A stretch of 64,000 nucleotides of DNA from an uncultured bacterium (GTDB lineage Bacteria; Cyanobacteriota; Vampirovibrionia; Gastranaerophilales; Gastranaerophilaceae): positions 1 through 64,000 of the forward strand of contig CATLLN010000001.1 of assembly GCA_950022695.1 (NCBI GenBank). Reading direction: 5' to 3'. Under the pieces are notes generated by a model. That model was not told the DNA's origin. It did not search any database and was given only the letters and a program-made list of their open reading frames with translations. Both the position numbers and the translations under genes were made by a program. This document shows positions 28,530 through 29,470 of the stretch, piece by piece (the first letter of the stretch is position 1; every line of letters begins with the position of its first letter).

Positions 28530-28628
28530 ATGGCTCTCCTTTTTTTATTATTATACTACAAAAAATATATTGTAAAAATACGTAAGGTTATGTATAATAA
28601 TTTATGTATATTGAAAAGGAGAAAGTGT

Positions 28629-29470
28629 ATGAAATTTAACAATATCTTTAAAAATCGGGGGGGGGTAACTGTTTAAGGCTTAATTTAAGCGGGTTTCAGC
28701 TATCTCCTAGAAAAGCATTTACTTTAGCCGAAGTTTTGATTACTTTAGGCATAATTGGTGTTGTTGCTGCTATGACCATTCCGAATTTAATTGCTAATGC
28801 GCAGAAAAAATCTGTTGTATCAGGACTTCAGGAAGCGCAATCTATTTTAAATCAAGCGGTTAAAATGTATTCTTATGAATCTGATGAAGAAGGTACAGGG
28901 GATTTTGACACAAGTTTGGATTCAAAAGCGTTTGCCCAAAAATATTTTGAACCGTATTTGAAAGTCGCAAGAGTTTGTGAAAACATGTCTGACGGTTGTT
29001 GGAAAACTGAAAACTTTTACGGTTATTACGATTTAGGAATGAACCGCAAAACTGACACTATTAAATACAGTCTTGTGCTAAATAATGGTATGATACTCGG
29101 ATTTGGTAAAATTCATGGTTATAATCTTCATTCAATAATTGTAGATATTAATGGTCAGGGTAGAAGAAATATTATGGGTAAAGATGTATTTGTATTTTAT
29201 CCGTTTAACAGTGAAGCCTTGTGTGCCGGTTATAACAAAGATAAAGCTAAAATGATTAAAAACGGAATTTATCCTGGAAGTTTTGATAATTGTGGTGTCC
29301 CTCATGTTATTTTTTCAAGAGAAGAAATTTTAGCACCAAATAAATTGCTTCGTGCTTGTAACAAAGATGTAGCACCTGATGGCGGAGGTCGAACAGGTGC
29401 CGGTTCAGCATGTGCGGCTTTAATTTTCAAAGACGGTTGGAAAATCAGCCGCGATTATCCTTGGAAATAG
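28629..29470 (+). CDS. Prepilin-type protein, out of frame at a G9 tract
   Basis: The ATG at 28629 has a strong AAGGAG site, but reading from it hits a stop at 28674, just past nine consecutive G (28657-28665). The frame reached by adding one G reads NCLRLNLSGFQLSPRKAF, then the class III leader FTLAEVLITLGIIGVVAAMTIPNL, then a pseudopilin-like domain to 29470. Cleavage is expected before F, with Glu at +5. Intact length would be about 280 residues. The frame without the tract has no good start (only TTG 28736, inside the leader). This fits a phase-variable gene in the OFF state, or a homopolymer sequencing error. Confidence 0.8.
28657..28665 (+). repeat. Poly-G tract (G9)
   Basis: Nine Gs in an AT-rich genome, preceded by C, placed about ten codons into the prepilin gene. 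Seven or ten Gs would put the ATG and the pilin domain in the same frame. Confidence 0.9.

Follow-up and report, generated by a model that had tools for sequence, protein, structure and literature searches.

Why does an intact pilin gene lie out of frame with the start codon in front of it? The question is raised by a run of nine G's in the genome of an uncultured Melainabacterium of the gut (G000; 1.95 Mb in 37 contigs). The run falls within the window, by which we mean the whole 64,000-nucleotide stretch of DNA that was analysed (contig C1, positions 1 to 64000). The original prediction held that a ribosome site and an ATG lead into the G-run and then into a stop, and that a change in tract length would fuse the ATG to a class III pilin by slipped-strand phase variation.

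A G tract separates a start codon from a prepilin frame

Direct reading of the sequence confirmed all coordinates of the proposed layout, which comprises the following features.

28616–28622, + strand: Shine-Dalgarno sequence AAGGAGA, read directly, 6–7 nt 5' of the ATG and conserved in the G000 cassettes
28629–28656, + strand: ATG start codon (28629–28631) and first 28 nt of the leader, MKFNNIFKN plus a C, in the ATG frame, by sequence reading
28649–28651, + strand: TAA stop in the pilin frame, 5' of the tract, by sequence reading
28657–28665, + strand: G9 tract, flanked by C (5') and T (3'), by sequence reading and by run counts in the window and the genome
28664–28717, + strand: remaining leader in the pilin frame, GNCLRLNLSGFQLSPRKA; paralogs have related GN.LKLNL..F leaders
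28674–28676, + strand: TAA stop of the ATG frame at the G9 length, giving a 15-residue peptide, by sequence reading
28718–29470, + strand: mature pilin-like protein FTLAEVLITLGIIGVVAAMTIP..., 250 aa plus stop, with the PF07963/TIGR02532 motif and a predicted long N-terminal helix and beta domain

The pilin frame spans the GGT at 28664 to the TAG at 29468–29470, with FTLAEVL at 28718. Reading the frames bore out that the ATG and the pilin share one frame at ten (or seven) G's and are out of frame at nine. The pilin was also predicted to have no start of its own; indeed, no ATG, GTG or TTG occurs in its frame from the stop at 28649–28651 to the G9 tract. Such a long G-run had been called out of place in this genome, and the counts agree: the window holds one run of at least eight G's against 0.08 expected, and the genome holds 22 runs of at least nine against about 0.4 expected under a first-order model.

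The identity of the protein as a class III pilin is likewise upheld. The window pilin scores 24.1 bits with PF07963 (cut-off 21.2) and 21.7 with TIGR02532 (cut-off 16.3). Its AlphaFold2 model (pLDDT 86.7) has a 53-residue N-terminal helix, residues 7–59, followed by the strands of a beta domain. Additionally, G000 encodes a prepilin peptidase in a 387-aa frame (PF06750, E 2.4e-36). No match reached an E below 0.001 when the model was searched with Foldseek against the PDB, and that search was of no help on the pilin subclass. On the motif scores, the predicted fold and the peptidase in the genome, the assignment of the putative product as a type IV or class III prepilin holds.

One 5' cassette precedes many pilin genes

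The locus had been described as a single switched gene, with the suggestion that other pilin genes be searched for tracts at the same place. That search found seventeen further pilin genes with a G9 tract, and a nineteenth (L213) with G7. The window gene is one of about 19 in its genome, and several relatives carry about 20–60 tracts each, with hundreds across the genus; the single-gene picture needs correction. Every one of the 22 runs of at least eight G's in G000 is exactly G9, with zero G8 and zero of ten or longer. The prepilin N-terminal motif has 76 matches in the genome, corresponding to some 75 pilin genes, which is a very large pilin set for 1.95 Mb.

As read from the assembly, not one tract pilin of G000 is in frame, and the offset of the pilin frame is equal in nearly all. 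Nearly all also share the same context, in which an ATG with a ribosome site is followed by 28 nt and then by approximately AAARC-G9-TAAC. The 28-nt spacing recurs in 21 of 21 tract pilins of the nearest relative, the Melainabacteria MAG CASLVD01 (G001). One locus, L012, has ATGs at -45 and -28, the second of which yields the common register. Among about 40 sampled pilins that lack a tract, most have short in-frame leaders such as MKKxFTLAEVL.

The start codon, leader and tract behave as a unit. Two of the genes, L024 and L025, share an identical segment of roughly 170 bp that starts just 5' of the ribosome site and runs through the conserved N-terminal stretch; upstream of it and in the pilin body they are unrelated. 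The leader is likewise common to L011, L015 and L027, over shorter stretches. The identical cassette on unrelated bodies shows that start, leader and tract have passed as copies from one pilin gene to another, probably through recombination. Such copying would also tend to even out tract length and register within a genome.

Tract lengths and registers differ between related species

The same arrangement is present in seven related species, with modal tract lengths that are species-specific and range from G8 to G11. The mode is G9 in G000, G001, G009 and G014, G8 in G034, and G11 in G007, G041 and G046. A scan of genome contigs for AAAC-G8+-TAAC matched the sister MAG CASLVD01 and unrelated genomes, and a scan of viral contigs for the cassette gave no match. 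Within G001, lengths run from G8 to G11, with G9 in 22 of 32 tracts.

Register was readable in 111 tract pilins from the eight genomes. Only four are in frame, against 37 expected, and the other 107 are out; the P of 1e-14 against a one-third share is a guide value, as it assumes independent loci and these are related by descent. Offset 1 was found in 53 genes and offset 2 in 54, and the two are mixed also within one genome. The four in-frame cases are three G10 genes of G001, open for 254–405 codons, and one truncated gene of G034. Four more loci (L073, L098, L149 and L192) have long open ATG frames that lack a recognised pilin motif or run off the contig end, and could add in-frame cases. 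In G007, all 44 are out of frame at tract lengths of 8 to 12, with differences in the flanks compensating for those in the tract.

The base immediately 5' of the G-run, position 28656 in the window, is a C in 105 of the 111 genes, also between genes that differ in codon phase. This pattern may reflect either descent or a constraint at the DNA level.

Out-of-frame pilins remain under purifying selection

A decayed gene downstream of the tract had been named as grounds for rejecting the prediction, and this is not what we found. Behind the tracts of G000 lie 18 open pilin bodies of 119–469 aa. Tract pilins of G000 and G001 form ten reciprocal-best pairs, with dN/dS values of 0.087–0.268; by this measure the genes are under purifying selection and are not decaying.

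In eight of the ten pairs, neither assembly has the gene in frame. Tract length differs in three pairs: L017 (G9) and L044 (G11), L019 (G9) and L087 (G10), and L029 (G9) and L080 (G10). In the last two, the G10 gene of G001 is in frame and its G9 partner in G000 is OFF. Differences are larger among the orthologs of the window gene itself: the one in G009 (69% identity) lacks a tract and has a short leader in frame, the one in G007 has G12, and those in G034 and G038 have other inserted sequence. In G001 the contig ends inside the G-run.

Probable phase variation of a large pilin repertoire

We favor slipped-strand phase variation, through the G tract, of a large and mostly OFF pilin repertoire, and give this reading of the sequences a probability of roughly 0.7. 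The G9 tract would act as a translational switch within the 5' cassette that these genes share. The common length would leave the frame off by one, and translation would stop after about 15 codons; one G gained or lost by replication slippage would join the start to the pilin frame. Prepilin peptidase would then remove the leader, including the residues encoded by the G's, and the tract would carry no cost to the mature pilin. Recombination would copy the cassette among pilin genes, which would spread the switch to unrelated bodies and help lengths to stay uniform. A consensus sequence with most copies OFF would fit a population displaying few of these pilins at once. Frames, tract lengths, the OFF excess, purifying selection, the sharing of the cassette and the differences in state between species can be read from the sequences. 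We infer that slippage would take place in living cells, and that the pilins would be expressed, exposed at the surface and of benefit.

This central part of the original prediction was supported only in part. The tract does hold the gene off frame, the body is intact, species differ in tract length, and in two of ten pairs the OFF gene of G000 has an ON partner in the sister species; on the other hand, tract length shows zero variation within G000. Two observations fit phase variation poorly. The first is this uniformity, unexpected of a tract that slips freely, which has a P of about 1e-6 under the G9 share of 53% in the Campylobacter poly-G phasome, where another 26% are G10 (PMC6321876). 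The second is the in-frame state, which is far below the neutral third. Slippage may be slow, because MutS is present in G000; its presence also led us to reject a loss of mismatch repair as the origin of the tracts. Recent copying of the cassette may account for the uniform G9 among pilins, and leaves uncovered the equally uniform length of differently flanked tracts outside pilin genes. For in-frame genes to be so rare, either the sampled populations must have been under selection for OFF, or the out-of-frame form must be expressed by RNA slippage.

Alternative explanations

The latter possibility leads to the strongest alternative, recoding, which we consider unlikely. Here the tract length would be fixed, and slippage of RNA polymerase on the G's, or ribosomal frameshifting, would yield small amounts of pilin, with the out-of-frame gene as the working, low-dose state. 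The 22 of 22 G9 tracts of G000 suit this proposal, as does the register of G007, which stays off frame across G8, G10, G11 and G12 through compensating flanks and is in frame in none of 44 genes. Strong purifying selection despite the off-frame state in both species points the same way. However, offsets 1 and 2 are equally common and mixed per genome, which leaves no single frameshift direction and led us to reject a direction-specific ribosomal frameshift as a general mechanism. Downstream RNA structure is also absent (mean z of -0.44 over 26 loci, by simple single-strand folding), and G001 has in-frame orthologs. As Rfam gave no match near the tract and downstream folding is not unusual, we rejected an explanation by RNA structure. 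Bacterial transcriptional slippage is best documented on A and T runs, a further point against recoding on G's. PMC1088944 analyses A and T runs. In an extended form of this proposal, selection would keep more than 100 pilin genes of the genus out of frame and slippage at the RNA level on the G-run would express them, with tract length setting a dose and not an on/off mutation; we rate it a shade lower still.

Next is an artefact of sequencing or assembly that conceals tracts that are really in frame. The original prediction had named an assembly error as one refuter, and we regard one as improbable. Long G-runs are difficult to sequence, contigs of many MAGs stop at the tracts, and a Bifidobacterium breve tract annotated as G11 has G12 as its major form (PMC9187656). 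Yet opposite errors would be required, since G000 would have to gain one G and most G007 genes lose one, and random errors would let an in-frame class survive. The independent assembly CASLVD01 also has G9 at most tracts, and the mostly OFF state is common to eight species. Runs of at least ten A's are present in the G000 assembly, which excludes a generic collapse of homopolymers.

Most improbable of all is that these are pseudogenes decayed after a frameshift: every tract pilin of G000 is out of frame, one tract (L028) sits in a broken pilin remnant and the sole in-frame tract pilin of G034 is truncated, but the 18 open bodies and the low dN/dS of the ten ortholog pairs argue against it.

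Comparison with known switches

If phase variation is right, the mechanism is an ordinary one; what is unusual is the scale, the presence of one cassette on unrelated pilins and the near-absent in-frame state. Pathogens are the best-known bearers of poly-G switches. In Neisseria, pilC has a poly-G tract in its signal-peptide region. As in our genomes, the leader that carries the G-tract is cleaved from a pilus protein, but PilC is a tip and biogenesis protein with one or two copies and not a pilin family. Antigenic variation at Neisseria pilE/pilS brings variable 3' segments into a single expressed gene. Many pilin versions, few of them expressed, and recombination between copies are features in common; the difference is that in our genomes the 5' cassette is constant and is carried by many complete genes.

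Campylobacter resembles G000 in its many intragenic poly-G tracts within an AT-rich genome, in G9 as the commonest length, and in having the G's mostly on the coding strand. Its lengths are spread and its ON share is nearer the neutral value, whereas G000 and its relatives have a near-uniform length per genome, one dominant protein family and few ON copies. The closest published case is the gut commensal B. breve UCC2003 (PMC9187656), in which two sortase-dependent pilus loci, bbr_0113 and bbr_1889, carry intragenic G10 or G11 tracts; the reference is OFF, with enrichment for the ON length in mice. There too, the first pilus gene is broken at the G tract into two frames that replication slippage joins. 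Those are Gram-positive pili with two loci in that strain; the prepilins of G000 and its relatives are type IV-like, their tracts number about 19 to 60 in each genome, and the shared cassette lies within the cleaved leader.

Among open-access papers, we found nothing relevant on phase variation or pilins in Melainabacteria. An uncultured, non-photosynthetic gut relative of cyanobacteria appears to carry a very large set of switchable pilins with most copies off. This bears on surface variation in commensals, on the rarity of the in-frame state and on the spread of a phase-variation switch among the members of a gene family.

Further observations

Four of the 22 G9 tracts of G000 lie outside intact pilin genes, namely L028 and three others. 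At L022 (positions 1536–1544), the tract is at the extreme 3' end of a cytidylyltransferase gene (CTP_transf_3, Pfam) with a second cytidylyltransferase gene directly 3', and a change in its length would alter the C-terminus or the coupling with the next gene. At L016 (L247) and L020, the tract reads as an in-frame C9 (Thr-Pro-Pro-Arg) within antisense reading frames of ~640 residues, and one of the two has the TAAC flank of the pilin cassette.

Strand use also differs between the two kinds of pilin gene. On contigs C1 and C2, counted by hand from the table of prepilin motif matches, 13 of 14 tract pilins are on the G-rich (GC-skew-positive, presumably leading) strand, and 25 of 33 tract-less pilins are on the opposite one (Fisher p = 1.6e-5). 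In the leader of one tract-less pilin, L241, an A7 run precedes a stop (ATGGTTAGAAATTTAAAAAAATAA); this may be a poly-A counterpart of the G switch.

Other repeats, or a duplicated N-terminus, occur between the Met and FTLAEV in eight genes of G000 and its relatives (L048–L051, L265, L266, L221 and L223), for example MKKDFTLAEVLAGRGNMLPVFSKAGFTLAEVL. From these sequences, the cleaved prepilin leader looks like a general landing place for insertions, which should be harmless there because the leader is removed. Finally, in a Bacilli MAG from rabbit gut (CANQAF01), four loci (L108, L119, L127 and L132) carry, upstream of pilin genes (MKKGFTLIELLAVI), a G9–G10 tract, then TAACCCC or TAATACCC, then a T-rich stretch. 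These tracts are possibly a convergent switch in the untranslated leader of an unrelated genome.
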